Below are positions 5,172-39,435 of a stretch of DNA of 64,000 bases, piece after piece. The DNA comes from Begonia masoniana. Lineage: Eukaryota; Streptophyta; Magnoliopsida; Cucurbitales; Begoniaceae. A program made the position numbers and the translations under genes. Numbering within the stretch: position 1 is the stretch's first letter; every line of letters begins with the position of its first letter. The notes under the pieces were generated by a model that worked only from the letters and a program-made list of their open reading frames with translations, searched no databases and was not told where the DNA came from. The stretch spans positions 24,123,653 to 24,187,652 of the forward strand of contig CM039511.1 in NCBI GenBank assembly GCA_022432975.1. Reading direction: 5' to 3'.

Positions 5172-6878
5172 TGTAGCGACCCGTGACTCAGCCGTTACTA
5201 ACTTGACCTAATTGTGAAAATACTTACAACTGGCCCACAGGTAAAAATCGCCCTAACAGCTTCGAGCACACCCCATGGATGTCATCCACCAACTGCTCTA
5301 TTACTCATCTTTAGGATTAACGTCCTCACCTGTATCAATATCACCTACACCACAAGGTAAACTGATGAGCCTAATGCTCAGTAAATGATGTACGGAAAGA
5401 AGAATGCATGCATGCTCATAAATATGCTATGCTGCTCATAAAACATGCACTGGATCTGTTCATTATTTTCTTGCATGACATGAGTCATTGGGGTCTTGAT
5501 TCTAGAGGAGAGATGGTCTTACTGAATGTCCACCTGGCGGGACGACCAACTCGCTCTAGGGGAAGTGGAATGACACACTTGACGGTCCCTCTGACGGAAC
5601 GGCCAAACTCAGTTCCCTATCCACAATGACTATTTACGTATTTTACGGTATTGTGTTCTTTTGCTCTTGTTTACATGAAAACATATGCTTAAAACTGTTT
5701 TCTATGCGTTGAAAAAAAAAACATGATGCATGGATGCATGTCACATACACATATCCTCGAATGTTGTAAGCGTATAATAAACTAGTAAACAGATCATCAA
5801 TTAAATAAGCAACTAGCATGGATAAACTCACTCACAACCTAAAATTTCTACCCAAATCATAACTCACAAATTAACATCTCCAAAATCCACATTCTAGCCA
5901 TCAACCTCCTAACTCTTTGTGGTGTAGGCCAATCGGCCAAGCACATGCAAACATGCACTTACCTCTCGTCCTGTGTTCAGTCTCGGCAATGTGCTCAATT
6001 TCCTTTTTGAATTGTAAACCTAAAATGTAGAAATTAACCATTACATATGACCTATACAGCTTTCAGAATTCCTAACAAATAGCCAAACTTCAAAAATTCA
6101 CATCTTTTTCTACACGTATCCGAATTCGATAATTCCAATGGCTATGGACTCCTTAAAGAGTCTATTTTAGCATGCTTAACTCAACTTACCAAATAGAACC
6201 AATTCAGTGAACCGAAATTAAAAACCTCTAAACTGTCCTGTAAATCCTCCTTTTTACTATTCATGCACAATTTGATTCATTTCATCAGTTCCATTTCATA
6301 AAATCCATTATATCTCATTTAACATCAATTATGCCAAGAGAATGAAGAAGGGAACTCACTACGTGCATTCTCTCTTAGGGTTCATCAAGCATAATTTAAA
6401 ACTCCACCAAACTACCATTCCTAAACATAAAACTCATCATAATCATCAACCATAATAGAATATCCACCTTACCTCTGAAAGAGTATAGAGAACTTTTGGG
6501 GAATGAATTACTCAGGTTTATGAAGAAGCTATTGTGGGTTTGCTTCAAATGAAGTTTTTCTCTCCATAAAACTATTTCTCACTTTTCTGTCTTTAATGGA
6601 TAAGATCAAGAAATCTACTAAGTGTGTGTGGTTATCACGTGGGAGAGTTGAGTCCACATCTCCTTTCTTTCTCTCCAAGGTAGAAAAGTAAAACTTCTTT
6701 TCTTTTTCTCTTATTTCTTTTTCTTTTTCCAACATGATTCATACCTTTTAAAATTGAAAATTAGACTTTTCTTCTTCACACTTCAACTTTCCTATTTAGC
6801 CCTAACATCCCATAAAAGTAGCATAATTTGGTAAATGCGGGAAAAAACTAAAGTGTATGGAAATTTTCGGATGTTACA
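5172..6878 (-). mobile_element. Inner gypsy solo LTR (1707 bp)
   Basis: Begins TGTAGCGACC, ends GATGTTACA, and is flanked by TTCAC on both sides (5167-5171 and 6879-6883), a clear target-site duplication. It inserted into the outer solo LTR. In element sense it keeps the leader architecture: intron-1-like segment (6472 to 6020), a candidate micro-exon of 57 nt (6019 to 5963) and an intron-2-like segment (5962 to 5345). Confidence 0.92.
5345..5962 (-). other. Conserved intron-2-like structured domain (inner solo LTR)
   Basis: Element sense donor GAGAG|GTAAGT, acceptor GGTGTAG|GTGA. The arms CCTACACCACAA (5344-5355) and TTGTGGTGTAGG (5917-5928) are perfectly complementary over 12 bp. Hairpin 1 is TGAGC-CTAAT-GCTCA (5366-5380). 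Hairpin 2 is GGCC-AATC-GGCC (5927-5938). Fifteen nt past the acceptor comes ACAG|GTGAGGA, another donor-like site. Confidence 0.65.
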
Positions 6879-7530
6879 TTCACCCACGGGTCAAAATTAC
6901 CTAGACAGTCCCAAACCCTTCCACCATGTGCTAATCCTTGATTCAACTATTTCGTAACCTATTGTACATGTATATACCAAATCCAAATTGGATGTCCACA
7001 ACATAGCGTATTTAAACACAATGCAACCAATTTATCCATCATTTGATTTTAAACCCGAATTAGACCCATAATAGCCTAAGCTTCAAAATCCCGTATCTTA
7101 GGCTACACTTAACCGAATTCAATAATTCCAACGCCTATGGGTCACTTATATAGCCTACTTTAACATGCCACAGCCAATCATCAAATAAAATTCTATCGAT
7201 TAAGCCCAGAAATTCAGAATCCAAAATATTCAGTCAACACTATTTTGAGCATTTATGACATTTATGACATCTATCTACCAATCCATCCAAAAGTTCATAA
7301 TAACCAACGTTTCATCACATTAACTCCATAATTTCGTAACCCTAATTCCATAAGTAACTCATACCGTAAATCTTAAGAGGAATGGAGGATGCTGCGAGAA
7401 AGAGGGAGAGAATGGTCGGCTGAACGGAGAGGAAAATTGCTGCTCGCGTGGAAGGAGAATTCGTGAGAGGGAAAAGAGAGAAAAATCGTGGGGGAAGGGG
7501 GGGGATCATTGGGAGCTAGGGTTCTGTCGT

Positions 7531-7534
7531 GAGA

Positions 7535-7598
<64 letters not shown>
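7531..7598. repeat. (GA)n microsatellite in the outer solo LTR
   Basis: About 68 bp of GA repeat with one interruption near its left end, inside the outer solo LTR. Confidence 0.95.
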
Positions 7599-7600
<2 letters not shown>

Positions 7601-7841
7601 AAAGATTTTAATGGCCTTTTTAAGGTTTTTATCTTTTTACCCCCTTCAACTTTAATTTTAATCCATTCCAAAATATTCCCCCCCCCCCCCCCCCAACAAA
7701 TATTCAAATAGTATTCCAGCATAATTATTAAATATTGAAATTAACTTATAAAGTATATTCTGGGTATTACAATGACTTATGTGTCTATAACTCCATCTCT
7801 TTTCCTCTCACTATTAAGGTTTCTCCCTCCTCTATTATTAG

Positions 7842-8044
7842 AGATAATTGGTTACTATTTCTTTCTAGTTTAATTATTGTCATATCACTCATTTATTACC
7901 TCCTTCATGTATACAAGCACCACACACACTTGGCATAATACAATTGTACAGAACACTCAATTGCAATACGGGTTTTACGTTTTCTTCTTCCTGGTTTTCT
8001 TTCTCCACTATCAGAGAGATCTCTCCGGGGTTCAAATCCTTACA
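7842..8044 (+). repeat. 5' LTR of copia C
   Basis: About 203 bp, starting near AGATAATTGG and ending CAAATCCTTACA. It matches 39996-40194 with scattered substitutions. The usual 5' TG is not evident, so the left boundary is uncertain by a few bases. Confidence 0.85.
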
Positions 8045-8057
8045 TGGTATCAGAGCC
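8045..8057 (+). promoter_or_regulatory. Primer-binding site of copia C
   Basis: TGGTATCAGAGCC, complementary to initiator Met-tRNA, directly after the LTR. Confidence 0.92.
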
Positions 8058-8062
8058 TAAGG

Positions 8063-8392
8063 ATGGCCTCCTCTAGCTCAACCGTCTTCCTAAACTCCAC
8101 TCCCTCCTCCAACGTCAATCCCCCTCCTCTCCCTCCCCTTCCTCCTGTTAACCAGATGCTCACCGTAAAATTAAACAGTACAAACTACCTCGTATGGAAG
8201 GCTCAGCTCCTTCACGTTGTAACGGCGAACGACATTCAACATATGCTTGATAGCACCTCAGCTACACCTCCTCAGTTTTTGGATTCCACCGAAACTCAGA
8301 CCAACCCGGACTTTTCAACATGGCAATGCTACAACAGCCTTTTCATAAGCTGGATCTTCGACTTTGACATGAACCGACTCTTCAACAACTAG
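8063..8392 (+). pseudogene. Copia Gag N-terminus, truncated (copia C)
   Basis: Starts at ATG 8063, 18 nt after the LTR end. The protein begins MASSSSTVFLN, then a proline-rich stretch and the copia Gag signature with LNSTNYLVWKAQLL. Gag would build the element's particle. The copia C homology fades around codon 95. The last codons (about 8350-8392) come from opposite-strand copia A sequence fused here, so the natural C-terminus is missing. Confidence 0.8.
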
Positions 8393-8398
8393 AGTTCT
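8350..8398 (-). mobile_element. Leftmost remnant of SIRE-like copia A
   Basis: About 40-50 bp that aligns, with about ten mismatches, to copia B around 8400 in element terms (window 58400-58440), ending at CTAGAGTTCT. The same pol segment resumes right of gypsy-1 at 20445. It shows that copia A once extended leftwards. Its reverse transcriptase, RNase H, envelope-like ORF and 3' LTR are gone. Confidence 0.65.
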
Positions 8399-8729
8399 TG
8401 TAACGACCCGGGGAGGATCGCCACGAAATTCGTGACTTGTCTTAAAACTTTAATTCATATTTGAACTCTTTTCTCCTTCTCTGTTTTTTTTTTTCATAAC
8501 AGTATACCTAACAGGCTTAAGGACTTCAACTTAACAGATGGAAAATCAGTCCCTCGTACGTGACTTCTTCATGAAATTATTTACTTAATCATTCACAGAC
8601 ATGAGCGACCATACACGGTCATTGATTCTATGACAAAATCGGGCGGTGGAGGATTGCCCTCGGGTCGCCCTACGTTATTCTATCTGAATTGCATGGGTCT
8701 GCATGCATCGGCGGATGAAGCGCATATTA

Positions 8730-8925
8730 ACCGACCTATCACGTGCATATCATGTGACTCTCTCATCGACATTCAGTAGAAAACATCTACCGATGAGCAC
8801 GTGCGTCTCTCGTGAACGTCTAAAACATCATCCGGTAGTTGACATCTACCGGTAGACACGTGCAGCTCTCGTGATCATTAAAACATCTACCGATAGACAT
8901 GTGAAATTCACGTGTTCCTCTAAGA
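8730..8925. promoter_or_regulatory. G-box and CTACCGRT repeat cluster in gypsy-1 LTR
   Basis: Several CACGTG or near-CACGTG hexamers (8742, 8799, 8859, 8913 area) each follow a CATCTACCGRT-type motif and are often followed by CTCTCGTGA. G-boxes are binding sites for plant bZIP and bHLH regulators. The block repeats in the other LTR at 18240-18420. A regulatory role is an inference. Confidence 0.5.
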
Positions 8926-8959
8926 CATCTTTCGATAGCTTACAAGCTCTATATCATCC

Positions 8960-9165
8960 GATCACTAAACACTCTACTTCTGCCGATCGCTAGACGACAA
9001 AATAGCACTTTCATCATCCGATGGCTAAACACTCTACATCTGCCGATCGCTAGACGAAAAAATTTATACTTACATCATCCGAAGGCTAAACACTCTACAT
9101 CTGCCGATCGCTAGACGATAAAATTTATACTTACATCATCCGAAGGCTAAACACTCTACATCTGC
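8960..9165. repeat. 61-bp tandem repeat in gypsy-1 3' LTR
   Basis: Units contain CATCATCCGAAGGCTAAA and CTGCCGATCGCTAGACGA. The 5' LTR of the same element carries one unit fewer (18500-18610), so the copy number changed after, or during, the last transposition. Confidence 0.8.
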
Positions 9166-9685
9166 TGATGAAGAAACATACTACATCTTTCGGTGACGTC
9201 ATCCAGAAGACTCAATCGTTCGATTCCTATCATTTGACATCTGCCGATGACGTCAGCCGGATGAATGCCTCATCCAGCTTCTATCTTACGGCAGTAAAAC
9301 ACTATAATCATCAAACAACCTCATCCAACAGAAAATACTACAACTCACCCAAATCTTAACTTGGAAATTATAAACCCTAATGAGTAAAAACCATATCCCA
9401 TTCAAGATACGCATAGCGGAAGGCTTAAGCAAAACAGACCATTCAATAATCCTTAAAATCGTTAACAGACTCTGAAGTCAAACCATTCAAATCCGAATCT
9501 CATTGTTATAAGAAAATTCTATTCTACTTAGTCATCTGTTTATCATAAACTTCTCTTACTTACTATGAGCATAACCAGGGAACTTAATCGCCTATCCAAC
9601 CTTGCACTGTCACACCGGGCATCCTCCGGCAACCAGCTTTAAACCTCATCTCTGGACTGAAATTCCTCACCTGCTAACTCTTCAC

Positions 9686-10301
9686 CTACATCATAAGGTT
9701 TAACTATAAGCCTAATGCTTAGTAAGGAATGCAACAATAACATGAATGCAAGAATGCATAATTCGGAGAAATACATGGTCATTAGCCTTTTCTTGTTCAT
9801 AATCATCATCCATAGTCATGAATCATATTCATCATTCGTAATCATTGTTCATAATCATTGTTCATATTCATCATTTAAGTTGTGTGGAATGAGAGAGGAT
9901 TTGTGCCGGTAAAGGGGGTTCGACAGTGATTTTGATCATGGTCCCTACTGCGGGTCGTATACATATGTCCTTCTTTGGACTGTGACATACGTTGAACCGC
10001 CCCCAACCCTCACTCAACCATGTTGCAGGGATTTTATCATCTTATCTTGTTCATGAGAAAACATGCTTTTAAAACATTTTCATATGCATAAAATAGTCAT
10101 GATGCATGTACTTGGAAATTCTTAAATCATCAAGCTGCAGAACAGAATACCATTCGACATGAAGCCTTATCATTGAGCTAATCATCGGCATAAACTTTAG
10201 ACAGTAACACAAGGGGATCTTCTAATCATCATGTGAGTTTCTACCTAGCATCCTTTGATGTAGGGTCCTAATGACCGAGAAACTTACACATTCACTTACC
10301 T
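9686..10301 (-). other. Conserved intron-2-like structured domain (gypsy-1 3' LTR)
   Basis: Element sense donor CCAG|GTAAGT, acceptor GATGTAG|GTGA, with a TACTAAG branch-site-like motif about 40 nt upstream. The arms CCTACATCA (9685-9693) and TGATGTAGG (10258-10266) pair over 9 bp. Hairpin 1 is TAAGC-CTAAT-GCTTA (9707-9721). Hairpin 2 is GGTC-CTAAT-GACC (10266-10278). CAG|GTGAGGA follows 15 nt after the acceptor. Confidence 0.65.
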
Positions 10302-11045
10302 GGTCTCCTTAGCACTTTGAGTTCCTTCCTCTTCAAACTTCTTCACCTAGAACATTTACCTTGCAGTAGTTAAAACAAAATCCTAATAGTTCTAATCTCA
10401 AGTTATCCTAAGATCTAATAGCTAGGAGTCATTCCCGAGTTCTTAGTTTAATACTCAATGTAACCCGAAATCCGAAAATCAAAACAGACGGATTCGATAA
10501 ATGATAACTCAGGGTTGGTTGTTTTAAATGTCCAGAATCGATTCGGAATGACATTACCAATCTCGGGTTTCAAAATGTTCTTATCAATACTCGGCCATTG
10601 AAGAATCCAAAACTTCAATACAGAGCTGAAAACAGAGCTAATAAACTAACAGATAGCCACATTGTCTAATGCATACCTCAGGCGCAGAGTAGTCAAGTGG
10701 TGGCGGAGTAAACCGGCCGTCGAGGAGAGTTTGCTGATAGCAAAGAGTAAGAACTTGCGAGAGAAGAAATCACCGGAAAGGAAGGTGTCGGCTACCGTGG
10801 TTTAAATGAGGTTTGAATCCTTTCCTTTTTCTTTAAATACTGGCCTCAATCCTCCAATATTACAACTTTGTCACTCAACCTAGTTTAGATCCACATGTAA
10901 TTAATTAAGCTTGGCATAAAATCCTAAACTGCGAAGATTAAAGATTTATGACCGTTAAAACAATTAGGAAAAAAAATCACCTGGCCGTTATCTCGGGTGT
11001 TACATCCACCCCTCCTTAAACAAAATTTTCGTCCCCGAAAATTGA

Positions 11046-11576
11046 TCAAACAAACAACTCTGGATACTTGTCTAACATGTCCTGTCGTCGCTCCCACGTG
11101 GCTTCTTCAATGCCATGATTCTTCCATAAAACTTTGACTAACGGAATCTCTTTATTCCTCAGAGTCTTAACTACGGATTCCAATATCTGCACTGGTCTCT
11201 CTTCATAGATTAATGATGGTTCAATCTTAATATCCATTGGCTTAACAACTTGCATCAGATCTCGTATGCATTTCCTTAACATTGACATGTGAAAGACATT
11301 ATGAACTTTATCCAATGATGGAGGCAACTGCAGTCTGTAAGCTGTACTACCGATTCTAGCCAAAACAGGGAATGGTCCAATAAATCGTGGATTAAGCTTT
11401 CCCCTCCTGCCAAATCTTAGTACTCCTTTAAATGGTGAAACCTTCAGGAAAACCTCATCTCCAACAGCAAATTCAAGATCTCTCCTCCTTTGGTCTGCAT
11501 AACTTTTCTGTCGGCTTTGTGCAGTAATCATTCTCCTTTTAATATTGGCAATCTTCTCTGACATCTGCTGCAACAT
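11046..11576 (-). pseudogene. Integrase C-terminus with chromodomain-like tail (gypsy-1)
   Basis: 176 residues following the integrase core. The first half has the conserved C-terminal integrase region (KSYADQRRRDLEF, VGDEVFLKVSP, GPFPVLARIG, VHNVFHMSMLRK). The last 50 residues, with LVKVLWKNHGIEEATWER, match the chromodomain tail of plant chromoviruses, which tethers integration to certain chromatin. The open frame ends in the natural stop just before the polypurine tract. A TGA at 11622-11624 separates it from the core domain in the same frame, so it is a piece of a broken polyprotein. Confidence 0.88.
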
Positions 11577-11624
11577 CTCGGGACCTAGGAGTTTTGCTTC
11601 ACCGACCTCATCCCAATACAGAGG

Positions 11625-14210: not shown

Positions 14211-14619
14211 ACAACAACTCTAATCGCTTCACTTGCAAATCCAGTAATAAACCAACAGAATACTAAATTCAGAGAAAGCTAAGAATACTTTTGAAAACTT
14301 CAAGTAACTCATTCTTGCTAAAACTAACCAGAGACAATCCAAACCTTTATGTCACTAGAAACTCATAAGTACTATCTTGAAATCCCAACAGAATATCGTT
14401 ATCAGAAAAGAAACTCAAAAGCAAATTCCAAAACATTAAAATTTCTACTGTCATGAAAGCTCAGTATAATAAATTTGAAATACTGTCAATTAATCTTTGT
14501 TAGTCAATGACACCAGTCAAACCGCCCCATCAGATGCCTGACCGTTGCACAGCCGTGCTCCACCAACCTCATCTACTCGGTTATGCTCTCAGGGAAATCA
14601 CCTGCTGTATCCTCAACAC

Positions 14620-15106
14620 CTACATCACAAAACTCATCTATTAGCCTAATGCTAAGCAAGTAAAGCATTAATGAAATGTATGCTGAAACATAAACCCTGA
14701 TTATGCAGTTTCTAATTTTCTCAACTCAGTTGTGCATCGTTCATAAACTGGTCTGATCCCTAAGTTCCCTTGGGAGTGGGATCGGTTCTCCCAATGTAAT
14801 AAATCCTCTACTCAGTTAAGGGGCGGATTACTTCCCTTAACAGCTAATACAGATCCCTTAATTCCCTTGGGAGTGGGATCGGTTCTCCCAATGTAATAAA
14901 TCCTCTACTCAGTTAAGGGGCGGATTACTTCCCTTAACAGCTACTCTGTTTCATTCAATTCATACTCATCATAACCTTGCACATAAATTCATTTTCGTAA
15001 TTCTTCAAAAACTTAATGCATGACATAAAGAAAAGAAACACTCAAACATGCATAAACCTACTATTTTGTGATGTAGGCCCGAAGGCTCACACATTACTTT
15101 ACTTAC
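14620..15106 (-). other. Conserved intron-2-like structured domain (solo LTR in gypsy-1)
   Basis: Element sense donor CCAG|GTAAGT, acceptor GATGTAG|GTGT. The arms CCTACATCACAAAA (14619-14632) and TTTTGTGATGTAGG (15064-15077) are perfectly complementary over 14 bp, the longest in the window. Hairpin 1 is TTAGC-CTAAT-GCTAA (14641-14655). Hairpin 2 is weaker: GCC-CGAA-GGC (15077-15086). Confidence 0.65.
14755..14944. repeat. 97-bp tandem duplication
   Basis: Two nearly identical units (14755-14851 and 14852-14944), each starting GATCCCTWA and containing GGGAGTGGGATCGGTTCTCC, inside the intron-2-like domain of the solo LTR. Confidence 0.9.
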
Positions 15107-16182: not shown

Positions 16183-16218
16183 GAATGCCTTAGGGAACTC
16201 TCTGACTATGGGGATGTC

Positions 16219-17898: not shown

Positions 17899-20444
17899 TG
17901 TAACGACCCGGGGAGGATCGCCACGAAATTCGTGACTTGTCATAAAACTTTAATTCATATTTGAACTCTTTTCTCCTTCTCTGTTTTTTTTTTATATAAC
18001 AGTATACCTAACAGGCTTAAGGACTTCAACTTAACAGGTGGAAAATCAGTCCCTCGTACGTGACTTCTTCATGACATTATTTACTTAATCATTCACAGAC
18101 ATGAGCGACCATACACGGTCATAGATTCTATGACGAAATCGGGCGGTGGAGGATTGCCCTCAGGTCGCCCTACGTTATTCTACCCGAATTGCATGGGTCT
18201 GCATGCATCGGCCGATGAAGCGCATATTATCCGACCTATCACGTGCATATCATGTGACTCTCTCATCAACGTTCAGTAGAAAATATCTACCGATGAGCAC
18301 GTGCGTCTCTCGTGAACGTCTAAAATATCATCCGGTAGTGGACATCTACCGGTAGACACGTGCAGCTCTCGTGATCATTAAAACATCTACCGATAGACAT
18401 GTGAAATTCACAGTGTTCCTCTAAGACATCTTCCGATAGCTTACAAGCTCTATATCATCCGATCACTAAACACTCTACTTCTGTCGATCGCTAGACGACA
18501 AAATAGCACTTTCATCATCCGATGGCTAAACACTCTACATCTGCCGATCGCTAGACGACAAAATTTATACTTACATCATCCGAAGGCTAAACACTTTACA
18601 TCTGCCGATGAAGAAACATACTACATCTTTCGGTGACGTCATCCGGAAGACTCAATCGTTCGATTCCTATCATTTGACATCTGCCGATGACGTCAGCCGG
18701 ATGAATGCCTCATCCAGCTTCTATCTTACGGCAGTAAAACACTATAATCATCAAACAACCTCATCCAACAGAAAATACTACAACTCACCCAAATCTTAAC
18801 TTGGAAATTATAAACCCTATTGAGTAAAAACCATATCCCATTCAAGATACGCATAGCGGAAGGCTTAAGCAAAACAGACCATTCAATAATCCTTAAAATC
18901 GTTAACAGACTCTGAAGTCAAACCATTCAAATCCGAATCTCATTGTTATAAGAAAATTCTATTCTACTTAGTCATCTGTTTATCATAAACTTCTCTGACT
19001 TACTATGAGCATAACCAAGGAACTTAATCGCCTATCCAACCTTGCACTGTCACACCGGACATCCTCCGGCAACCAGCTTTAAACCTCATCTCTGGACGGA
19101 AATTCCTCACCTGCTAACTCTTCACCTACATCATAAGGTTTAACTATAAGCCTAATGCTTAGTAAGGAATGCAACAATAACATGAATGCATGAATGGATA
19201 ATTCGGAGAAATACATGGTCATTAGCCTTTTCATGTTCATAATCATCATCCATAGTCATGAATCATATTCATCATTCGTAATCATTGTTCATAATCATTG
19301 TTCATATTCATCATTTAAGTTGTGTGGAATGAGAGAGGATTTGTGCCGGTAAAGGGGGTTCGACAGTGATTTTGATCATGGTCCCTACTGCGGGTCGTAT
19401 ACATATGTCCTTCTTTGGACTGTGACATACGTCGAACCGCCCCCAACCCTCACTCAACCACGTTGCAGGGATTTTATCATCTTATCTTGTTCATGAGAAA
19501 ACATGCTTTTAAAACATTTTCATATGCATAAAATAGTCATGATGCATGTACTTGGAAATTCTTAAATCATCAAGCTGCAGAACAGAATACCATTCGACAT
19601 GAAGCCTTATCATTGAGCTAGTCATCGGCATAAACTTTAGACAGTAACACAAGGGGAACTTCTAATCATCATGTGAGTTTCTACCTAGCATCATTTGATG
19701 TAGGGTCCTAATGACCGAGAAACCTACACATTCACTTACCTGGTCTCCTTAGCACTTTGAGTGTCTTCCTCTTCAAACTTCTTCACCTAGAACATTTACA
19801 TTGCAGTAGTTAAAACAAAATCCTAATAGTTCTAATCTCAAGTTATCCTAAGATCTAATAGCTAAGAGTCATTCTCGAGTTCTTAGTTTAATACTCAATG
19901 TAACCCGAAATCCCAAAATCAAAACAGACGGATTCGATAAATGATAACTCTGGGTTGGTTGTTTTAAATGTCCAGAATCGATTCGGAATGACATTACCAA
20001 TCTCGGGTTTCAAAATGTTCTTATCAATACTCGGCCATTGAAGAATCCAAAACTTCAATACAGAGCTGAAAACAGAGCTCATAAACTAACAGATAGCCAT
20101 ATTTTCTAATGCATACCTCAGGCGCAGAGTAGTCGAGTGGTGGCGGAGTAAACCGGCCTTCGAGGAGAGTTTGCTGATAGCAGAGAGTAAGAACTTGCGA
20201 GAGAAGAAATCGTCGGAAAGGAAGGTGTCGGCTACCGTGGTTTAAATGAGTTTTGAATCCTTTCCTTTTTCTTTAAATACTGGCCTCAATCCTCCAATAT
20301 TACAACTTTGCCACTTAACCTAGTTTAGATCTACATGTAATTAATTAAGCTTGACATAAAATCATAAACTGTGAAGATTAAATATTTATGACTGTTAAAA
20401 CAATTAGGAAAAAAAATCACCTGGCCGTTATCTTGGGTGTTACA
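17899..20444 (-). repeat. 5' LTR of gypsy-1 (2546 bp)
   Basis: TG at 17899, CA at 20444. Near-identical to 8399-11004 except for scattered substitutions and one missing 61-bp unit. It contains the G-box cluster at 18240-18420 and the leader architecture, with intron 2 at 19739 to 19126 and the 45-nt exon at 19784 to 19740. Confidence 0.93.
19126..19739 (-). other. Conserved intron-2-like structured domain (gypsy-1 5' LTR)
   Basis: Same as the 3' LTR copy: arms at 19125-19133 and 19696-19704 (9 bp), hairpin 1 at 19147-19161, GTAAGT donor, and GATGTAG|GTGA acceptor with an upstream TACTAAG motif. Confidence 0.65.
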
Positions 20445-21347: not shown

Positions 21348-23645
21348 TGTAACACCCCTAATACTGTACCCATTTTTACCCGTATAAATTTTTCATTTTC
21401 TTTTATACTTAGCGTTTATGCGGAAAACATTTTTGAAATCAAACTAAATAAAACTTTTAAAACAATTTTAAACATTTAATTTAAAACTATAAACAATTAA
21501 AACTATTTAAAACATTAAACAAATTGCAGAGGGGCAAAACCGGGAAAAACAGGCACTGCACAATGTAGCGCCCGATCGCTGCACTTGCAGCGACCAGTTT
21601 CCTTTATTTCTCTCTGGAATCCGAGATTCCAGAGAGCAATCCAACATGCATTTTCCTACAATTCAAGCGATCCCTCATTCCATTTTCATTCATTCCCTCT
21701 CGGTTAAACTACCTACACTCACACAATACTTTCGTAAAAACAAACCGCGTGGATATGTTTAAAAATCGACAATCCTTCCTGTTTTCAATTTACCACGCAG
21801 TTCCAAAATAGATTTTTCCAAACAATTATAAAACAGTTCCAAAAACGTTTAAAAACATTAAACCTATCTAATATCAGATTCCAAACATCCTAATATGTTC
21901 TAACATTATACATATTTCCTCAAAATAACCCAGTACCCTTAAAATCTATACATACATCCCCCACGGGTCGGTAAGGCATCGACTGTACAGCACACCACCG
22001 CAAGCATCATCCATCAACCGAGTCATGTCTCAGGTGGAGGGATCTCATCCTCACCTGGCTCGATGTCACCTAAGACGTCACCTACACCATAATACACGCT
22101 ATGAGATAAAAATCTCAGTAAGTCCTACATAAATGCAAATGCGTGGTCATGCATGCTCAATGCTATGAAAACAGTCCATGTCAGTTCATATATCAGTACG
22201 TGTCAGTCTATGGTTATCGGAAACGCTCGACAGATAGATAGGGCACGTCCAGCGGTTAGACAGCCCACACCATCTGAAGGGAGGGAAACCCGTTCACCAC
22301 AGAACGCCAGGTCTGAACCTCATCCCCGATAACCCCATGCCATGGTTGTTTACTGTGATACTTTACTTGCCTTTACGATGCATGTTCTTTTCATGAAATC
22401 CGTGCATAAATCCATTTTCATGTCGTTTTTAAAACCATGATGCATGAACAGTTCAATATAAACGTAAAGTAAACAATCAACATATATACCATCAAAGACT
22501 ACAAAAGCATAACCTATAACCTGTAAAAGACTAAACCTAACTACCCATCAAAACAATTTAAAACAAACAATCCATTTAGATCCTCGACGTGACATCGAAT
22601 TACGGTGTAGGCCAATCGGCCAAGTAAGTCACGAGAACTTACCTTGAGCGCACAGATTCTCGAGCTTCGTCCAAGAGAGTCGTTCACCTAAGCAATTCGA
22701 AGCACTTATCGTTAAAACAAATTTAAACTTCTAAACGTCCAACTTCAACGAAACCTTAACTAAGGAATTCCTTAAAACTTCTAGCTCATCAAATCGAGAT
22801 ACTTAAACGACTAATTCATGCTCGATGGTTCGAAATTACAATTAACGAACTTTTCCAAAAATTCCTAATTTTTTAACCTTTTTACGATTTGATTTAACTT
22901 CGTCCAATAACGTCAAATACGTCCAATATATACTTAATCATGGCTAACCTATTAATTATGAACCCTAAATCTCATTTTTTTAACGAAAATCCATCGAAAC
23001 CCTAATTAACTAAATCTCCGTAAAACTCGAAATAAACGCTCAAAGACCGAAGCTGCATACCTAGGGTAGCGAGAGGAGGAGAAACCGTGAAGAAATCGGA
23101 ACGAACGGAGGTCGGACGGAGGTCGGAATGTTGATCGGTGTCGGCGGCCGAGAGAGGAGGGAACTCTCTGTCGTGCGACCCAGAGAAGAAAAGAGAGAAA
23201 GTGAGGGAGAGAAAGAATTTGTGATGTTTAAATAAAAATTGATTTTCAAATTACCATTTTGCCCTTCTCACTTAATTCAATTCGTTTCGTCGTTCGTTTC
23301 GTTAATCGTCCAACGATTCGGATTCTCGAAAATTTCATATTTTGCCAATAACTCATATTTATCACCAGGGCTTTATTAAAACTGTCTATTCGCAATTTGG
23401 ACTTCATTTACTATTTTTACTAAAACGTCCTTTAAGTTTCGAGAAACACAATTACTCGAAATATAGCGTTTAAACTCCAAAAATTCTCGTAATTTCCTTA
23501 AAATTCCAATTATTCGTTAGGATCATCATGACGTTTTCCATTTGCTAAACTTACCTGATTTGACATATTTACCAAAAATGCTATTATATAATAATATATT
23601 GAATAATATATTAAATCCAAAAACTTGTACAGGCCGGATATTACA
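21348..23645 (-). repeat. 3' LTR of gypsy-2 (2298 bp)
   Basis: TG at 21348, CA at 23645. It contains a perfect 12-bp inverted repeat CTCTCTGGAATC / GATTCCAGAGAG (21610-21636), intron-1-like segment (23060 to 22688), 45-nt exon (22687 to 22643), intron 2 (22642 to 22082) and TATTTAAA near 23230 on the element strand. Confidence 0.93.
22082..22642 (-). other. Conserved intron-2-like structured domain (gypsy-2 3' LTR)
   Basis: Donor AAG|GTAAGT, acceptor GGTGTAG|GTGA. The arms at 22081-22093 and 22599-22611 pair over 13 positions with one A.C on the plus strand, which is a G.U pair in element-sense RNA. Hairpin 1 is TGAGAT-AAAA-ATCTCA (22102-22117). Hairpin 2 is GGCC-AATC-GGCC (22610-22621). Confidence 0.65.
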
Positions 23646-28170
<4,525 letters not shown>

Positions 28171-28328: not shown

Positions 28329-30646
28329 TGTAACACCCCTAATACTGTACCCATTTTTACCCGTATAAATTTTTCATTTTCTTTTATACTTAGCGTTTAT
28401 GCGGAAAACATTTTTGAAATCAAACTAAATAAAACTTTTAAAACAATTTTAAACATTTAATTTAAAACTATAAACAATTAAAACTATTTAAAACATTAAA
28501 CAAATTGCAGAGGGGCAAAACCGGAAAAACAGGCGCTGCATTGTGCAGCGACCAGTCGCTGCACTTTGCAGCGACCAGTCGCTACACTTGCAGCGACCAG
28601 TTTCCTTTATTTCTCTCTGGAATCCAAGATTCCAGAGAGCAATCCAACATGCATTTTCCTACAATTCAAGCGATCCCTCATTCCATTTTCATTCATTCCC
28701 TCTCGGTTAAACTACCTAAACTCACACAATACTTTCGTAAAAACAAACCGCGTGGATATGTTTAAAAGTCGACAATCCTTCCTGTTTTCAATTTACCACG
28801 CAGTTCCAAAATAGATTTTTCCAAACAATTATAAAACAGTTCCAAAAACGTTTAAAAACATTAAACCTATCTAATATCAGATTCCAAACATCCTAGTATG
28901 TTCTAACATTATACATATTTCCTCAAAATAACCCAGTACCCTTAAAATCTATACATACATCCCCCACGGGTCGGTAAGGCATCGACTGTACAGCACACCA
29001 CCGCAAGCATCATCCATCAACCGAGTCATGTCTCAGGTGGAGGGATCTCATCCTCACCTGGCTCGATGTCACCTAAGACGTCACCTACACCATAATACAC
29101 GCTATGAGATAAAAATCTCAGTAAGTCCTACGTAAATGCAAATGCGTGGTCATGCATGCTCAATGCTATGAAAACAGTCCATGTCAGTTCATATATCAGT
29201 ACGTGTCAGTCTATGGTTATCGGAAACGCTCGACAGATAGATAGGGCACGTCCAGCGGTTAGACAGCCCACACCATCTGAAGGGAGGGAAACCCGCTCAC
29301 CACAGAACGCCAGGTCTGAACCTCATCCCCGATAACCCCATGCCATGGTTGTTTACTGTGATACTTTACTTGCCTTTACGATGCATGTTCTTTTCATGAA
29401 ATCCGTGCATAAATCCATTTTCATGTCGTTTTTAAAACCATGATGCATGAACAGTTCAATATAAACGTAAAGTAAACAATCAACATATATACCATCAAAG
29501 ACTACAAAAGCATAACCTATAACCTGTAAAAGACTAAACCTAACTACCCATCAAAACAATTTAAAACAAACAATCCATTTAGATCCTCGACGCGACATCG
29601 AATTACGGTGTAGGCCAATCGGCCAAGTAAGTCACGAGAACTTACCTTGAACGCACAGATTCTCGAGCTTCGTCCAAGAGAGTCGTTCACCTAAGCAATT
29701 CAAAGCACTTATCGTTAAAACAAATTTAAACTTCTAAACGTCCAACTTCAACGAAACCTTAACTAAGGAATTCCTTAAAACTTCTAGCTCATTAAATCGA
29801 GATACTTAAACGACTAATTCATGCTCGATGGTTAGAAATTACAATTAACGAACTTTTCCAAAAATTCCTAATTTTTTAACCTTTTTACGATTTGATTTAA
29901 CTTCGTCCAATAACGTCAAATACGTCCAATATATACTTAATCATGGCTAACCTATTAATTATGAACCCTAAATCTCATTTTTTAACGAAAATAGATCGAA
30001 ACCCTAATTAACTAAATCTCCGTAAAACTCGAAATAAACGCTCAAAGACCGAAGCTGCATACCTAAGGTAGCGAGAGGAGGAGAAACCGTGAAGAAATCG
30101 AAACGAACGGAGGTCGGACGGAGGTCGGAATGTTGATCGGTGTCGGCGGCCGAGAGAGGAGGGAGCTCTCTGTCGTGCGATCCAGAGAAGAAAAGAGAGA
30201 AAGTGAGGGAGAGAAAGAATTTGTGATGTTTAAATAAAAATTGATTTTCAAATTACCATTTTGCCCTCTCACTTAATTCAATTCGTTTCGTCGTTCGTTT
30301 CGTTAATCGTCTAACGATTCAGATTCTCGAAAATTTCATATTTTGCCAATAACTCATATTTATCACCAGGGCTTTATTAAAACTGTCCGTTCGCAATTTG
30401 GACTTCATTTACTATTTTTACTAAAACGTCCTTTAAGTTTCGAGAAACACAATTACTCGAAATATAGCGTTTAAACTCCGAAAATTCTCGTAATTTTCTT
30501 AAAATTCCAATTATTCGTTAGGATCATCATGACGCTTTCCGTTTGCTAAACTTACCTGATTTGATATATTTACCAAAAATGCTATTATATAATAATATAT
30601 TGAATAATATATTAAATCCAAAAACTTGTACAGGCCGGATATTACA
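28329..30646 (-). repeat. 5' LTR of gypsy-2 (2318 bp)
   Basis: Near-identical to the 3' LTR. The main difference is at 28540-28600, where a roughly 23-bp unit containing TGCAGCGACCAGTCGCT is present in one more copy. The perfect 12-bp inverted repeat recurs at about 28613-28639. Confidence 0.93.
29085..29645 (-). other. Conserved intron-2-like structured domain (gypsy-2 5' LTR)
   Basis: Arms at 29084-29096 and 29602-29614, 13 positions with one G.U in element-sense RNA. Hairpin 1 at 29105-29120. Donor GTAAGT at 29645, acceptor at 29085, 45-nt exon at 29646-29690. Confidence 0.65.
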
Positions 30647-31004
30647 TATTTTCTTTCCTATAGCCATAAAATAGAATTTTTCCATTTGGAGCATCTTTAA
30701 TTATGCAAGAATTTGACTTAAAAATCACTTCATATCCTTTATCACATAACTGGCTAATACTGAGTAAATTATGCTTTAATCCATCAACTAATAAAACATT
30801 CTCAACAATAGGATTAATGTTGTTACCTATGTTGCCGATGCCAACAATTTTCCCTTTTTGGTTTCCACCAAAAGTAACACTTGCTTTTTTCTTGTTGACA
30901 ACTGCAAACTTGGTTGAGTCTCCTGTCATATGCCTCGAGCATCTACTGTCGAGGTACCATTGATTTTTCCCAGGATAACAGTCAACCTGCAAAACAGAAA
31001 TCAA
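30647..31004 (-). pseudogene. Protease region of copia A
   Basis: About 119 residues including WYLDSRCSRHMTGD, where copia B has the catalytic DSGC, so Gly is replaced by Arg beside the catalytic Asp. The VTFGGNQKGKIVGIG and NLLSISQLCDKGY motifs of copia protease and pre-integrase follow. The frame is cut by gypsy-2 at 30647. Confidence 0.85.
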
Positions 31005-32589: not shown

Positions 32590-32645
32590 TGTAAATATAT
32601 ATATAACACAGAGTGTTTAAACACAGCTTAGACAATGATAACCTC

Positions 32646-32657
32646 GCTCTGATACCA
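32646..32657 (-). promoter_or_regulatory. Primer-binding site of copia A
   Basis: Minus strand TGGTATCAGAGC beside the LTR end at 32660. Confidence 0.92.
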
Positions 32658-33115: not shown

Positions 33116-33123
33116 CTTAAATA
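33116..33123 (-). promoter_or_regulatory. TATA-like box in copia A LTR
   Basis: TATTTAAG in the conserved context ACAGAGTATTTAAG, present at the same place in both copia B LTRs (49642-49635, 62722-62715). It is probably the element's core promoter. Confidence 0.55.
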
Positions 33124-33501
33124 CTCTGTCTGATTTCTGCTTCACAGAATTGAATGCTTCATTCTTCAAATGGAAAAATGTTACCGTTGGGAAGCATCTG
33201 TACTGAAGCAGATATCCGTTGCATCTGAAATTGCTATTCGTCGTCGCCATTAAAGTTCTGGAGTTAATGCTGAAAACGACGTCACTGTAGCTTCGCGGTT
33301 ATAATCAAATTTGGCGGAAGATTACCGGTGGAAGCAGCTTTAAAAAATCAGAACGTCATCGGTGGATGCAACTTGAAAAGCCATCGGATAATGCAACACT
33401 TCAACGCTTGAACCGGTATTGGCAGGAGTAATATTTTAAGCGCTGAACCGCCATCGGTAGGAGTAGCTTCAAATGTCATCGGCAGAAGCAATCTTGAAAA
33501 A

Positions 33502-35536
33502 GCCATCGGCAGAAGCAGCTTGAAAACGCCATCGGCAGATGCAGCTTGAAAACGCCATCGGCAGATGTATCTTCAAACGTCATCGGCAGATGCAGCTTGA
33601 AAACGCCATCGGCAGATGTATCTTCAAACGCCATCGGCAGATGCAGCTTGAAAACGCCATCGGCAGATGCAGCTTGAAAACGCCATCGGCAGATGCAGCT
33701 TGAAAACGCCATCGGCAGATGCAGCTTGAAAACGCCATCGGCAGATGCAGCTTGAAAACGCCATCGGCAGATGCAGCTTGAAAACGCCATCGGCAGATGC
33801 AGCTTGAAAACGCCATCGGCAGATGCAGCTTGAAAACGCCATCGGCAGATGCAGCTTGAAAACGCCATCGGCAGATGCAGCTTGAAAACGCCATCGGCAG
33901 ATGCAGCTTGAAAACGCCATCGGCAGATGCAGCTTGAAAACGCCATCGGCAGATGCAGCTTGAAAACGCCATCGGCAGATGCAGCTTGAAAACGCCATCG
34001 GCAGATGCAGCTTGAAAACGCCATCGGCAGATGCAGCTTGAAAACGCCATCGGCAGATGCAGCTTGAAAACGCCATCGGCAGATGCAGCTTGAAAACGCC
34101 ATCGGCAGATGCAGCTTGAAAACGCCATCGGCAGATGCAGCTTGAAAACGCCATCGGCAGATGCAGCTTGAAAACGCCATCGGCAGATGCAGCTTGAAAA
34201 CGCCATCGGCAGATGCAGCTTGAAAACGCCATCGGCAGATGCAGCTTGAAAACGCCATCGGCAGATGCAGCTTGAAAACGCCATCGGCAGATGCAGCTTG
34301 AAAACGCCATCGGCAGATGCAGCTTGAAAACGCCATCGGCAGATGCAGCTTGAAAACGCCATCGGCAGATGCAGCTTGAAAACGCCATCGGCAGATGCAG
34401 CTTGAAAACGCCATCGGCAGATGCAGCTTGAAAACGCCATCGGCAGATGCAGCTTGAAAACGCCATCGGCAGATGCAGCTTGAAAACGCCATCGGCAGAT
34501 GCAGCTTGAAAACGCCATCGGCAGATGCAGCTTGAAAACGCCATCGGCAGATGCAGCTTCAAACGCCATCGGCAGATGCAGCTTGAAAACGCCATCGGCA
34601 GATGCAGCTTGAAAACGCCATCGGCAGATGCAGCTTGAAAACGCCATCGGCAGATGCAGCTTGAAAACGCCATCGGCAGATGCAGCTTGAAAACGCCATC
34701 GGCAGATGTATCTTCAAACGCCATCGGCAGATGCAGCTTGAAAACGCCATCGGCAGATGCAGCTTGAAAACGCCATCGGCAGATGCAGCTTGAAAACGCC
34801 ATCGGCAGATGTATCTTCAAACGCCATCGGCAGATGCAGCTTGAAAACGCCATCGGCAGATGCAGCTTGAAAACGCCATCGGCAGATGCAGCTTGAAAAC
34901 GCCATCGGCAGATGCAGCTTGAAAACGCCATCGGCAGATGCAGCTTGAAAACGCCATCGGCAGATGCAGCTTGAAAACGCCATCGGCAGATGCAGCTTGA
35001 AAACGCCATCGGCAGATGCAGCTTGAAAACGCCATCGGCAGATGTATCTTCAAACGCCATCGGCAGATGCAGCTTGAAAACGCCATCGGCAGATGTATCT
35101 TCAAACGCCATCGGCAGATGCAGCTTGAAAACGCCATCGGCAGATGCAGCTTGAAAACGCCATCGGCAGATGCAGCTTGAAAACGCCATCGGCAGATGCA
35201 GCTTGAAAACGCCATCGGCAGATGCAGCTTGAAAACGCCATCGGCAGATGCAGCTTGAAAACGCCATCGGCAGATGCAGCTTGAAAACGCCATCGGCAGA
35301 TGCAGCTTGAAAACGCCATCGGCAGATGCAGCTTGAAAACGCCATCGGCAGATGCAGCTTGAAAACGCCATCGGCAGATGCAGCTTGAAAACGCCATCGG
35401 CAGATGCAGCTTGAAAACGCCATCGGCAGATGTATCTTCAAACGCCATCGGCAGATGCAGCTTGAAAACGCCATCGGCAGATGCAGCTTGAAAACGCCAT
35501 CGGCAGATGCAGCTTGAAAACGCCATCGGCAGATGC
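33502..35536. repeat. 26-bp minisatellite, about 78 copies, in copia A U3
   Basis: Unit GCCATCGGCAGATGCAGC plus TTGAAAAC, nearly invariant. About seven 25-bp variant units read GATGTATCTTCAAAC instead of GATGCAGCTTGAAAAC, at about 33561, 33613, 34705, 34808, 35042, 35093 and 35430. The element strand has no stop codon in any frame across the array, which creates apparent frames of up to 616 residues; these are not genes. Confidence 0.95.
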
Positions 35537-35649
35537 TTTTGTCATTACCTATCGGTGGATGCCATTCTTTTCTTCAACCGGTGGATGTCTTCTTTGTCTT
35601 TTAGCTATCGGTTAATGTGAACATTTTATACAATTTCAGCCCTGTACAC

Positions 35650-37426
35650 TTATCTAAGCATCCTAATATGTTCAATCTATACAATTTCTCCTACCATCTA
35701 ACTATTGTGTCTCCAAAATACTTACATACATCTCCACGGGTCAAAAAGGTGCCTCGACTGCCCAGCACACTCCCGCGGGCCATCCTCCTTCAACTGCATC
35801 ATTCCTCACGTGGAGGGATCTGGTCCTCACCTATGTCAAGATCACCTACACCATACAGACAATCTATGAGCTAAAGGCTCAGCAAGTTTCGTAAATGTAA
35901 ATGCATGCTGTGCAAATGAGTTTCAGAAATCATGCAACATTTTATTATCTTTACATAGGTTGTCACCGAGATCTCAACCCGCTATATGGAGAGGGCACAT
36001 TCTGCGGTTGGACAACCCTTTCCACCTAGCAGAGGGGGGTACATGCTTGCAACACGCACAGCCATGCCTGAGTCCCACCTCGCATGACCATAAACATACA
36101 TGGGTTCTTATTAGATGCGGTATTGTGACCGACCCTTCTCAGCCTTCACAATAGGTCAATAGCCCCCTTTCAAACCACATCGCCATTTTCATTAAAACAT
36201 AGTGCAAAAATTCATTTTCTATGCATAATTGAAAACCGTGATGCATGGACAATTACGTGCTTAAAGTAAACATACATCATACGTACCATCAAGACAATAA
36301 AAGCAATTAAAAGCATACCCTATAAAAGAACTAATCCTAACTATCCAACCAAAGCATTTAAACAAACAATTCCACAATAACCCTCGACGCAACTTTGAAA
36401 TACGGTGTAAGCCTATCGGCCAGAGTAAGTCACGAGAACTTACCTCGTGCGCGTTGAACTTCTAGCTCTGTCCACGAGCATCGTTTACCTAAGGCAAATT
36501 CACAATATTTGTCGTTAAAACAAGTCTAAACCAATAAACGTCTAAACTTACGAAACTCTTAACTAATGAAATTTTCCTAAAACTCTAATTTAACTCATTG
36601 AGGTATTTTTATCGTGCGATTCACGCTCGACACCTCAAAACCTCCATTAACGGAGTTTTTCAAATCTCGAAATTTTGACAAACCTTAATATTCCACAATG
36701 GATAGACCAACCTTCGTCCAATACGCCCAATATGTCCATTATATTCATAACTACGGTAACTCTATCGATTTCCAACTCTAAATCACGTTTTTCATAAAAC
36801 CCTAAACGAAAACCCTAATGTTAAACAACCCAAAAACTACGAATAAACTTTCCAAAACCATAGAACCTTACCTAGAATCGAGTTTGGGGAAGAAAACGTG
36901 AAGAACGGAGGTCAACCGGGGGAAGAACGGATGTCGGAGAGGAGAGAACCGTGAGTGGCGATGAGAAAATTGCCTGGAGAAAACTTCACAGAGAGCTTCG
37001 CATGAAAATGGTGAAGGAAGACGAAAGAGTTATGTTATTAATTAAAATTTTACTTAGCAAATTATCATTTTGCCCTTCCTTTGATTTTCTATTTGTTTCG
37101 TTAATTATCTAACGATTCTGTTTCTCCAAACTTCCTCATTTCGCCAATAAATCCAACTTATTACTAGGGTTCCATTAAAACTGTCCGTTCGCAAATCGGA
37201 CCTCGTTTACTATTTTTACCAAAGTATCCTTTATATTATGATAAACGTAATTCTCGTAAAATTAGCGTTAAACTCCTAAAATTTTCAAAATTTTCTTAAA
37301 ATCTATATTAATTATTAGGATCGTAATGATGCTTTCTTTTCACGAAACCAACTTAATTCGACATAATTACAAAAATATCATTATTCACATATGTTACAAA
37401 AATCCCATAAAGAATCGGGTGTTACA
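35650..37426 (-). repeat. Truncated gypsy LTR
   Basis: Right-hand part of a gypsy LTR ending GGGTGTTACA at 37426, joined to truncated copia A at about 35650. It keeps intron 2 (36443 to 35846), the 45-nt exon (36488 to 36444) and intron 1 (36871 to 36489). The following GAAGT may be one target-site copy; its partner is lost. Confidence 0.8.
35846..36443 (-). other. Conserved intron-2-like structured domain (truncated LTR)
   Basis: Donor GAG|GTAAGT, acceptor GGTGTAG|GTGA. The arms at 35845-35855 and 36401-36411 pair over 11 positions with two A.C pairs on the plus strand; both are G.U in element-sense RNA. Hairpin 1 is TGAGC-TAAAG-GCTCA (35867-35881). ATAG|GTGAGGA follows 15 nt after the acceptor. 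Confidence 0.65.
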
Positions 37427-39435
37427 GAAGTAACCCCCATCAGTACGCTTAACCTTACTTAGGCTGAATCGTCCACAACATCAGCCGATCGATCGCTACG
37501 GTAGGCGATCGATCGGCAAGCTCTCTGGATTTTAATTCTAGAGAGCAGCCTCCTTCTTAACTACCCTGCACACCACACACATCACAATTTAATAAACATC
37601 CTCAAAATATCCATCCTTAACCCAAACTTCTAAATTATGAAATCATCATACCGACCTAAAACAGCACATTTGTCTCAAAACAATAACCTGACTATAAATC
37701 ATCCAAATTCCACATAATAGCATTATCATCGAATTCATTTCATCTCTATACATTCAGTTTCCATAAAAATCCAAATAAAAGGCTTAGCAAAACATTTTAT
37801 AAATTGAGTTTACCAAAACATCAATTTATCTACTATCCAGATACCAAACATCCTAAAATGAAAGTCTATACATTTTTCCTAACTAACACTCTTCAGCCCG
37901 AACACATCCCAAAATACCCAAAATACTTATCCTTGGCTCCCACGGGTCAAAATGGCACCGACTGCACAGCGCACTCCCACGAGCACACCTCTTCAACCAG
38001 CTTATACGTCGGGATCGAGTGGAGGAATCTCATCCTCACCTGTATCGAAGTCACCTACACCATAGAAAATAAACTATGAGCTAAAAAGCTCAGCAAGTCT
38101 CGTAAATGAAGATGAGTGCTATGCATGCGGGGTCTGTAAAAACATGCATTCCTTTTTTATTATTTAGTTACATAGCGGGAGGTGTCACCGGGGGTTGGCT
38201 CACCAGATAGAGAGGGCACATCTCGCGGTTAGATAGCCCTTTCCATCTGCAGGGGGGAAGACATGCTCCTCCTCTCAGGACAGCCATGTCTGAATCCCAC
38301 CCCGACGTGACCGGGATTACGTGCATTTCATATCATTTCGTTAGGCGTTTCTTTTCATGAAAACATATGTGGAAATTCATTTTTCGTGCTGGCTCATAAA
38401 ACATGATGCATGAACATGGATTTGAGCATAAACGTAAGGAAAAACACAAACAATACATAGAACCTAATGAAAAAAAATGTTCTAACATACAATTATCCTA
38501 ACTACTCTTCAAACCTACACTAAACAAGAATTTCTCCAATTATCCTCGATCAACAAAGCGCATCCATGGTGTAGGCCAAATCGGCCAAACAAGTCACAAA
38601 GACTTACCTCGCGTCCGTAGCACACCGAGCTCTACTCTCGAGCGTTGTTCACCTATGACAATTCACAACAATCGTCATTAAGAGCCGATCTTAGGAAATC
38701 AAATTCTAAAAGGCTAACGAAGTCCCTAGCTAAAGAGTATTTCCTAAAACCATTGAGGCATTTTATCGAGCAATTCGTGCTCGTAAATCCCTAACCTCCA
38801 TTAATGGAGTTTCTAAGTTCTCCAATGACCAAAAACTCCATATTCTTCAATAAATCGACTAACTATGCCAAATAACCACCAATACGTCAATTAGAGGCAT
38901 AGTCACACTAAACCCATCGATTTCTAACCTTAGTCCACAGTTTTTAACAAAAATCCTAAACGAAATCCTACCATTTTAAACCCTAGAAATCGAGAATAAA
39001 CCATCCAAGAGCATAGATTCTTACCTAGAACGTTGTTTGGAGGAGGAAACATGAAGAAAATCGAGCGATTGGAGGAGAAATCGTTGAAGAGGGAGGGAGA
39101 ACCGCCGTGGAGGAGAGAGTCGCCAGAGAGAGAGAGAGAAAACCTCTGGAAAACGTTAAATATGGAGAAGAAGGAAGGGATTTGGCATTTTAATATAATT
39201 TGACTTGTCAAATTACTGTTTTGCCATTCCTTTGATTTTATATTAGTTTCATCATTTGTTTCGTTATTTAGCTAACGGTTCAGTTTCTCCAAATTTTCTT
39301 ATTTCACCATTAATTCCAACTTATTGTTAGGGCTCTATTAAAACTTTCCGTTCGCAAAACGGACTTAATCTGACATATTTACAAAAATGCCACTATATAT
39401 TTGAATATTATAATTCCGTAAAATCGGGTGTTACA
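37427..39435 (-). repeat. Second truncated gypsy LTR
   Basis: Lacks roughly the first 200 bp of the PBS-side end and finishes GGGTGTTACA at 39435, next to copia C sequence. Intron 2 is 38607 to 38055, the 45-nt exon 38652 to 38608 and intron 1 39024 to 38653. Near 37490-37521 is a perfect 12-bp inverted repeat CCGATCGATCGC / GCGATCGATCGG. Confidence 0.8.
38055..38607 (-). other. Conserved intron-2-like structured domain (second truncated LTR)
   Basis: Donor GAG|GTAAGT, acceptor GGTGTAG|GTGA. The arms CCTACACCAT (38054-38063) and ATGGTGTAGG (38566-38575) are perfectly paired over 10 bp. Hairpin 1 is TGAGCT-AAAA-AGCTCA (38077-38092). Hairpin 2 is GGCC-AAATC-GGCC (38574-38586). ACAG|GTGAGGA follows 15 nt after the acceptor. 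Confidence 0.65.

Follow-up and report, generated by a model that had tools for sequence, protein, structure and literature searches.

Long terminal repeat (LTR) retrotransposons of plants have been described in a 2025 review as generally free of introns, with Ogre and EVADE as notable exceptions (PMC12786077), and BARE1 of barley is another element that bears one (PMC3735527). The Ogre intron lies between the protease and reverse transcriptase coding regions (PMC6317226), EVADE belongs to Ty1/copia (PMC12786077), and BARE1 has two promoters and an intron of 104 nucleotides (nt) at the end of gag; it replicates only the RNA that keeps the intron, and amplification from genomic DNA yielded no copies of the spliced form (PMC3735527). 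Complementary stretches near both ends of an intron that join the splice sites are known from the (AC)m-(GU)n introns of zebrafish (Lin et al. 2016, as described in PMC9024468 and PMC9198270), and the sister stwintrons of Hypoxylon, present in many related copies, have a terminal stem predicted to draw distant splice sites towards each other and to mask a branch site (PMC9024468). Here we analyse a 64,000-nt stretch of the Begonia masoniana genome (GenBank assembly GCA_022432975.1, contig CM039511.1, positions 24,123,653 to 24,187,652; hereafter the window), in which Ty3/gypsy retrotransposons appear to carry a two-intron 5' leader within their LTRs, the ends of the second intron being joined by a covarying helix, P1.

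Retroviruses control splicing by RNA structures that keep part of the genomic RNA unspliced, and retroviral introns are not usually contained entirely in the LTR. An intron placed there must survive reverse transcription, so that the element has to keep part of its RNA unspliced. The host of intron 2, as of the Ogre and EVADE introns, is a plant LTR retrotransposon, but intron 2 lies inside both LTRs of the two copies named gypsy-1 and gypsy-2; to BARE1 the likeness would extend to partly spliced RNA, the differences being the position in the LTR leader and the covarying end-to-end helix. Unlike the zebrafish introns, intron 2 belongs to an LTR retrotransposon, has family-specific, covarying arms and has the end of arm 3 on the acceptor; its arm sequences, inspected in the window and in genome copies, show no AC repeats at one end with GU repeats at the other. 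Hypoxylon stwintrons are nested introns of a fungus, whereas the covariation of this LTR-leader intron was tested on a tree. Searches of the open-licence literature, judged by their listings, returned nothing that describes an intron inside a plant LTR (one of them matched a single lentiviral-vector paper), and the passages of a paper on LORE1 mention no LTR introns.

A putative intron 2 and the pairing of its ends

The window is plant DNA with many nested LTR elements, and the Ty3/gypsy copies studied are in minus sense, save a truncated plus-sense copy at 46.9 kb. Nine complete LTR copies represent seven families, since the two LTRs of gypsy-1, like those of gypsy-2, are not independent. In all nine, intron 2 runs on the minus strand, the element sense, from an AG/GTAAGT donor to a TGTAG/G acceptor over 487–618 nt. 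Arm 5 of P1 begins 29–35 nt past the donor G, and the last base of arm 3 is also that of the intron; one more pair is possible with the first exon base. In the element's RNA the final 8–13 bases of the putative intron would pair with a segment that lies about 32 nt into the intron from the donor. The first-pass annotation had placed the arms in this way, and the five arm pairs that it quoted (gypsy-0, or g0, the inner copy, gypsy-1, the solo copy and the 38-kb copy) are correct and complementary. Donor, AG acceptor and branch motif are those of a U2-type intron, as judged from sequence only.

Read in element sense, positions 2–12 of P1 in the seven families comprise 68 Watson-Crick pairs, 7 G.U pairs, no A.C and 2 others. 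Three deviations that had been read as A.C on the plus strand, hence G.U in the transcript, are indeed so, at position 9 of gypsy-2 and at positions 2 and 9 of the 35.6-kb LTR, and four more G.U pairs occur at positions 11–12, in the g0, gypsy-1, 35.6-kb and 38-kb copies. By duplex energy the native arms rank first among 5040 permutations of the families and first among 144 when permutation is confined to the T-type and C-type groups (defined by position 7); the standard-pair count at positions 1–14 is reached by 3 of the 5040 assignments and the Watson-Crick count at positions 2–14 by 7 of the 144 within-group ones, the native assignment included in each case. Sliding the arms 1–4 bases upstream lowers the standard pairs from 82 to 22–43 of 91. 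Among 500 dinucleotide shuffles the end-to-end duplex was reached 7 times for g0, 0 for the inner copy, 2 for gypsy-1, 0 for the solo copy, 1 for gypsy-2, 26 for the 35.6-kb copy and 2 for the 38-kb copy, so that the 35.6-kb copy is weak taken alone. Intron 1, used as a control, is without an end-to-end helix in 7 of 8 copies, the exception being g0 (z -2.75).

When whole introns are folded, P1 positions 3–10 have a probability of at least 0.93 in 6 of the 7 families. Applied unaided to the nine introns, RNAalifold returned P1, a hairpin called H2, one small near-palindrome hairpin and nothing else. In the nine-copy count 98.6% of cells are standard pairs and 12 are double-change cells; each of these values, as well as the covariation score, was reached by 0 of 500 shuffles, and sliding the alignment by 1–3 columns leaves 25–54% paired. 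Under a tree-based null for the nine copies, the double-change cells were reached 0 times in 5000 for P1 and once in 5000 for H2.

Two hairpins accompany P1. The 3' strand of H1 ends at arm-5 position 1, so that H1 could stack on P1; with at least 3 base pairs (bp), H1 is found at the arm-5 start in 57 of 64 copies (the window copies and the genome copies described below), compared with 31% of intron places drawn at random. Two YTNA branch-site candidates, some 33 and 21 nt upstream of the acceptor, are covered by H2, a hairpin of 5 bp. The second pair of H2 varies between G-C, A-U and U-A from copy to copy, and the hairpin is disturbed in g0. A YTNAG motif stands 31–35 nt upstream of the acceptor in all 64 copies. 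Elsewhere in intron 2, a motif around CATGCATCATG is conserved and has an AT-rich tail of loose conservation; in the six window families for which its distance was measured it lies 178–231 nt past the donor. Across positions 2335–38607 its variants include CATGCATTAAG in the solo copy and CATGCATCACG in the 35.6-kb copy.

Copies across the genome and the leader

The acceptor/exon-3 signature has 19,558 exact matches in the 795,452,319-base assembly and its reversed control has none. From 100 listed places among these, all on contig C1, 60 copies with differing signatures were fetched; 55 of them were parsed for donor and arm 5, the latter at 31–37 nt, and form the 64-copy set together with the nine window copies. 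Since the signature fixes arm-3 positions 1–8 (position 7 being G or A) and the parser accepted a donor with one difference and an arm-5 core with two, variation at these sites is under-sampled; GTAAGT, sought with that tolerance, is the donor in 52 of the 55.

At positions 2–12 of the 55 genome copies 561 of 605 cells pair, compared with 531 on average and 545 at most over 2000 re-dealings of arm 3. For all 64 copies the null places an equal number of arm-3 changes on the tree: P1 positions 2–13 hold 53 double-change cells against 9.6 in the null (maximum 44; 0 of 2000 reach it), and H2 holds 39 against 4.4 (maximum 27; 0 of 2000), while the observed number of paired cells was matched by one of the 2000 null runs for P1 and by none for H2. 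Taken pair by pair, the double changes are unusual at P1.7 and H2.2 (each reached 0 times in 2000), P1.12 (21) and H2.5 (24). Along inner branches, whose changes went through multiplying lineages, pairing at P1 positions 2–11 was kept 12 times and broken once, against 14 and 15 on terminal branches (Fisher p 0.007); for H2 alone the counts of 4 kept and 1 broken (inner) against 8 and 5 (terminal) do not differ significantly. Selection on P1 pairing in the element-sense transcript, which the first-pass annotation had proposed, is well supported, because double changes exceed the tree nulls, inner branches retain the pairing and the deviations are G.U, not A.C.

A pattern of joined exons 2 and 3, covering 36 of 55 exon-2 ends, matched six places in the whole genome, none of them a spliced copy, where the unspliced signature has its 19,558 matches. 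In L105 and L106 roughly 15 nt at the beginning of exon 3 are duplicated in tandem, the sites in L104, L107 and L108 follow an element end in TTACA, and that in L109 follows unrelated AT-rich DNA; the 60 nt before the six sites score 14–20 against any of 63 exon 2s, which among themselves score a median of 62 (minimum 18). Within the window no joined exons were found, the one loose match being the unspliced intron-1 acceptor of gypsy-2. This leaves two readings: intron 2 is not spliced, or its spliced RNA seldom if ever gives rise to a new LTR.

The leader, placed by eye in eight copies, consists of an intron 1 of 219–453 nt and an exon 2 of 45–57 nt, followed by the intron-2 donor; its introns are T-rich. 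AUG triplets number 24 per kb in intron 1, 46 in intron-2 stretches, 3.4 in the final 150 nt of exon 1 and 2.7 in exon 2, where shuffles lead one to expect 3.0 against the 1 seen, a weak deficit (63 of 500). A short acidic frame can be seen by eye in exon 3 of several families, but we claim no protein, because stops interrupt exon 2 in g0, gypsy-1 and the solo copy, and a single AUG occurs in it over eight copies. Exon 3 begins GTGA-N9-AGGTGAGGA in 4 of the 7 window families (for the place of such a start, see 38054-38025) and at the 19,558 genome places. The sequence CAG/GTGAGG resembles another donor, so that exon 3 might be a microexon of 18 nt, or its acceptor a site of recursive splicing.

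What the pairing may do

That the intron ends have mostly kept their ability to pair across the 64 copies suggests that the element controls its own splicing. Our best reading, to which we give a probability of roughly 45%, is that the P1/H1/H2 fold is a splicing brake: H1 adjoining P1 and H2 covering the branch-site candidates, the fold would hide the branch region together with the acceptor AG, leaving only a fraction of the transcripts to splice intron 2. The unspliced RNA would then serve as replication template and genome, and the spliced RNA, with its shorter leader, mainly for translation. We infer all three components, the excision of intron 2, the lowering of splicing by P1 and the division of labour between the RNAs. 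We favour the brake most for three reasons: the acceptor and the branch candidates lie within P1 and H2, the donor sequence is strong, and it is unspliced RNA that gave rise to the LTRs seen. Separate pools for spliced and replicated RNA have support from BARE (PMC3735527). If correct, a covarying helix at both intron ends would be a concrete and testable control element that divides plant retroelement RNA between translation and replication. A bolder and more doubtful reading is that the intron ends form one RNA module that brakes splicing and at the same time marks the unspliced RNA as genome, a label that splicing would erase; were it true, each new LTR would retain the intron, through the many thousand copies of the element. 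The first-pass annotation had itself suggested that the helix brings splice sites together or regulates the splicing of genomic RNA, proposals that splice-site-like sequence makes plausible.

A number of observations weigh against the brake. The RNA that BARE replicates comes from a different promoter (PMC3735527), and pools so separated need no helix to keep them apart. Strict necessity of the pairing is contradicted at arm-3 position 8, where changes were compensated in 0 of 34 readable copies (572 places counted, 100 listed, 40 fetched, less five without a 5' end and L117, a false arm-5 parse); these copies either tolerate a broken pair or are decaying. Four of the position-8 variants are each common to two fetched copies, so that one mismatch does not always stop propagation, and position 10 is C.A in 13 of 64 copies. 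Apart from P1.7, P1.12, H2.2 and H2.5 no pair is individually unusual in double changes, P1.10, P1.11 and P1.13 included; the double-change cells, which are not events, reduce to about six inferred events in P1 and about six in H2, and the nine-copy count is ordinary on two of five measures (pairs with a double change, 57 of 500; further pair types, 451 of 500). The preferred folds of the gypsy-1 LTRs are without P1 (probabilities 0.19 and 0). In the fold model loss of arm 5 costs 4.7–14.7 kcal/mol, and the acceptor is still largely paired elsewhere in several families, which means that masking does not come from P1 alone. The scarcity of AUG in exon 1 follows from its CT-rich composition (4 seen, 4.1 expected in shuffles), and an intron 2 that is never spliced would explain the lack of spliced LTRs equally well.

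The main rival, somewhat unlikely in our estimation, has P1 promoting splicing by bringing donor and acceptor within about 30 nt of each other across an intron of 500–600 nt. Such a bridge agrees with a helix that begins about 32 nt from the donor and ends exactly at the acceptor, has its precedent in the zebrafish introns (PMC9024468, PMC9198270) and goes with a region before the acceptor that holds no long pyrimidine run, the longest being 3–6 in 7 copies; yet the runs of intron 1 are equally short (3–5) in copies of which 7 of 8 have no helix, and the very AG and branch candidates that splicing would need are covered by P1 and H2. The last objection is softened by the zebrafish fold, in which branch elements can be masked too (PMC9024468). 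Less probable again is a structure that acts mainly in packaging or dimerisation of the unspliced RNA and is destroyed by splicing. Its position means that it would be lost on splicing, and the joined-exon pattern found no spliced LTR, although an intron that never splices, or separate promoters as in BARE, would also leave none; packaging is not separable here from the brake, and the present data do not tell enhancer, brake and packaging structure apart.

It is quite improbable that the stretch is no intron at all and that its inverted repeat acts at the level of DNA or of small RNA. The genome search that yielded no spliced copies speaks for it; on the other side stand a complete donor consensus in all nine window copies, the branch-like motif at a near-fixed distance in 64 of 64, deviations that obey RNA pairing rules on one strand, and a helix of only 9–14 pairs around a loop of several hundred nt. 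Chance complementarity of two motif copies, or a terminal inverted repeat left over without selection, is hardly credible and already disfavoured. Positions 1–6 and 8 do vary little, partly because the search fixed arm 3, and a mutual-information screen of 97,903 column pairs ranks P1.10 (21,557), P1.12 (23,462) and H2.5 (2,530) low, with P1.7 at 33 and H2.2 at 51, a screen confounded because two main groups dominate. But family-specific pairing extends beyond the motif, the P1 double changes were reached 0 times in both tree nulls, and the arms are placed asymmetrically, about 32 nt from one end and 0 from the other.

The elements and their surroundings

The gypsy-1 element encodes gag/protease, RNase H and integrase on its minus strand in Ty3 order (Pfam matches in three separate pieces), the reverse transcriptase, split by the solo LTR, being outside the scoring. 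The element is probably a plant Ty3/gypsy chromovirus of the Tekay/Del-like kind, a label that is likely but unproven since the chromodomain after the integrase (PF00385) scores 20.3 bits, under the cut-off of 25.1; a few of the 120 integrase homologues listed, out of 7922, carry PF00385, and those among the 120 with an organism name are all plants.

Table. Positions in the window of introns, P1 arms, hairpins and LTRs
Feature	Copy	Positions	Strand	Remarks
Intron 2	g0	2335..2930	-	596 nt; donor G 2930, last G 2335
P1 arm 5	g0	2888..2897	-	
P1 arm 3	g0	2334..2343	-	first exon base included; pair probability 0.93-1.00, positions 2-10
H1	g0	2897..2909	-	GGCC-CTTAA-GGCC, adjoining P1
Intron 2	inner LTR copy	5345..5962	-	618 nt
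P1 arm 5	inner	5917..5928	-	12 bp
P1 arm 3	inner	5344..5355	-	
H1	inner	5928..5937	-	
H2	inner	5366..5380	-	TGAGC-ATTAG-GCTCA, over branch-site candidates
LTRs	gypsy-1	8399-11004 and 17899-20444	-	94.7% alike
Intron 2	gypsy-1 first LTR	9686..10299	-	614 nt
P1 arm 5	gypsy-1 first LTR	10256..10264	-	P1 probability 0.19
P1 arm 3	gypsy-1 first LTR	9685..9693	-	
Intron 2	solo LTR inside gypsy-1	14620..15106	-	487 nt
P1 arm 5	solo	15064..15077	-	14 bp
P1 arm 3	solo	14619..14632	-	
H1	solo	15077..15086	-	GCC-TTCG-GGC
Intron 2	gypsy-1 other LTR	19126..19739	-	P1 probability 0, unconstrained fold
P1 arm 5	gypsy-1 other LTR	19696..19704	-	
P1 arm 3	gypsy-1 other LTR	19125..19133	-	
LTRs	gypsy-2	21348-23646 and 28329-30647	-	97.4% alike
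Intron 2	gypsy-2 first LTR	22082..22642	-	561 nt
P1 arm 5	gypsy-2 first LTR	22599..22611	-	13 positions, one G.U
P1 arm 3	gypsy-2 first LTR	22081..22093	-	
Intron 2	gypsy-2 other LTR	29085..29645	-	
P1 arm 5	gypsy-2 other LTR	29602..29614	-	
P1 arm 3	gypsy-2 other LTR	29084..29096	-	
Intron 1	gypsy-2 example	29691..30062	-	placed by eye
Intron 2	35.6-kb LTR	35846..36443	-	598 nt
P1 arm 5	35.6-kb LTR	36400..36411	-	
P1 arm 3	35.6-kb LTR	35845..35856	-	
Intron 2	38-kb LTR	38055..38607	-	553 nt
P1 arm 5	38-kb LTR	38563..38575	-	
P1 arm 3	38-kb LTR	38054..38066	-	
Intron 2, 5' part	truncated plus-sense copy	47934..48063	+	arm 5 from 47966; 3' part replaced by long poly-T

Rfam, self-splicing introns included, gave no match at gathering scores anywhere in the window. 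In IMG/VR the donor-H1-arm pattern had no match, and the integrase fragment matched one contig (L001), set aside as chimeric by eye: its positions 1-240 are a Ty3/gypsy integrase fragment, followed by GC-rich sequence of phage-like appearance, probably an assembly chimera. The exon-3 pattern matched 12 GTDB entries with only bacterial or archaeal titles, taken as chance on those titles alone, and 2 IMG/VR entries, which were counted only; a reverse transcriptase fragment had 8 matching stretches, none confirmed. Plant relatives beyond the window's own genome were not reached by these searches.

The plus-sense LTR copy is broken by a poly-T run of about 500 nt, at about 48070-48580. Fragments resembling the 3' part of the gypsy-1 LTR (8950-9141) lie outside gypsy-1 at 48889-49078 and 63731-63849. 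A large array of 47-nt tandem repeats occupies 50101-54300 inside an open frame, and simple arrays are found at 26.7-27.8 kb (AT), 33.4-35.5 kb, 40.2-40.9 kb and 61.1-62.1 kb.

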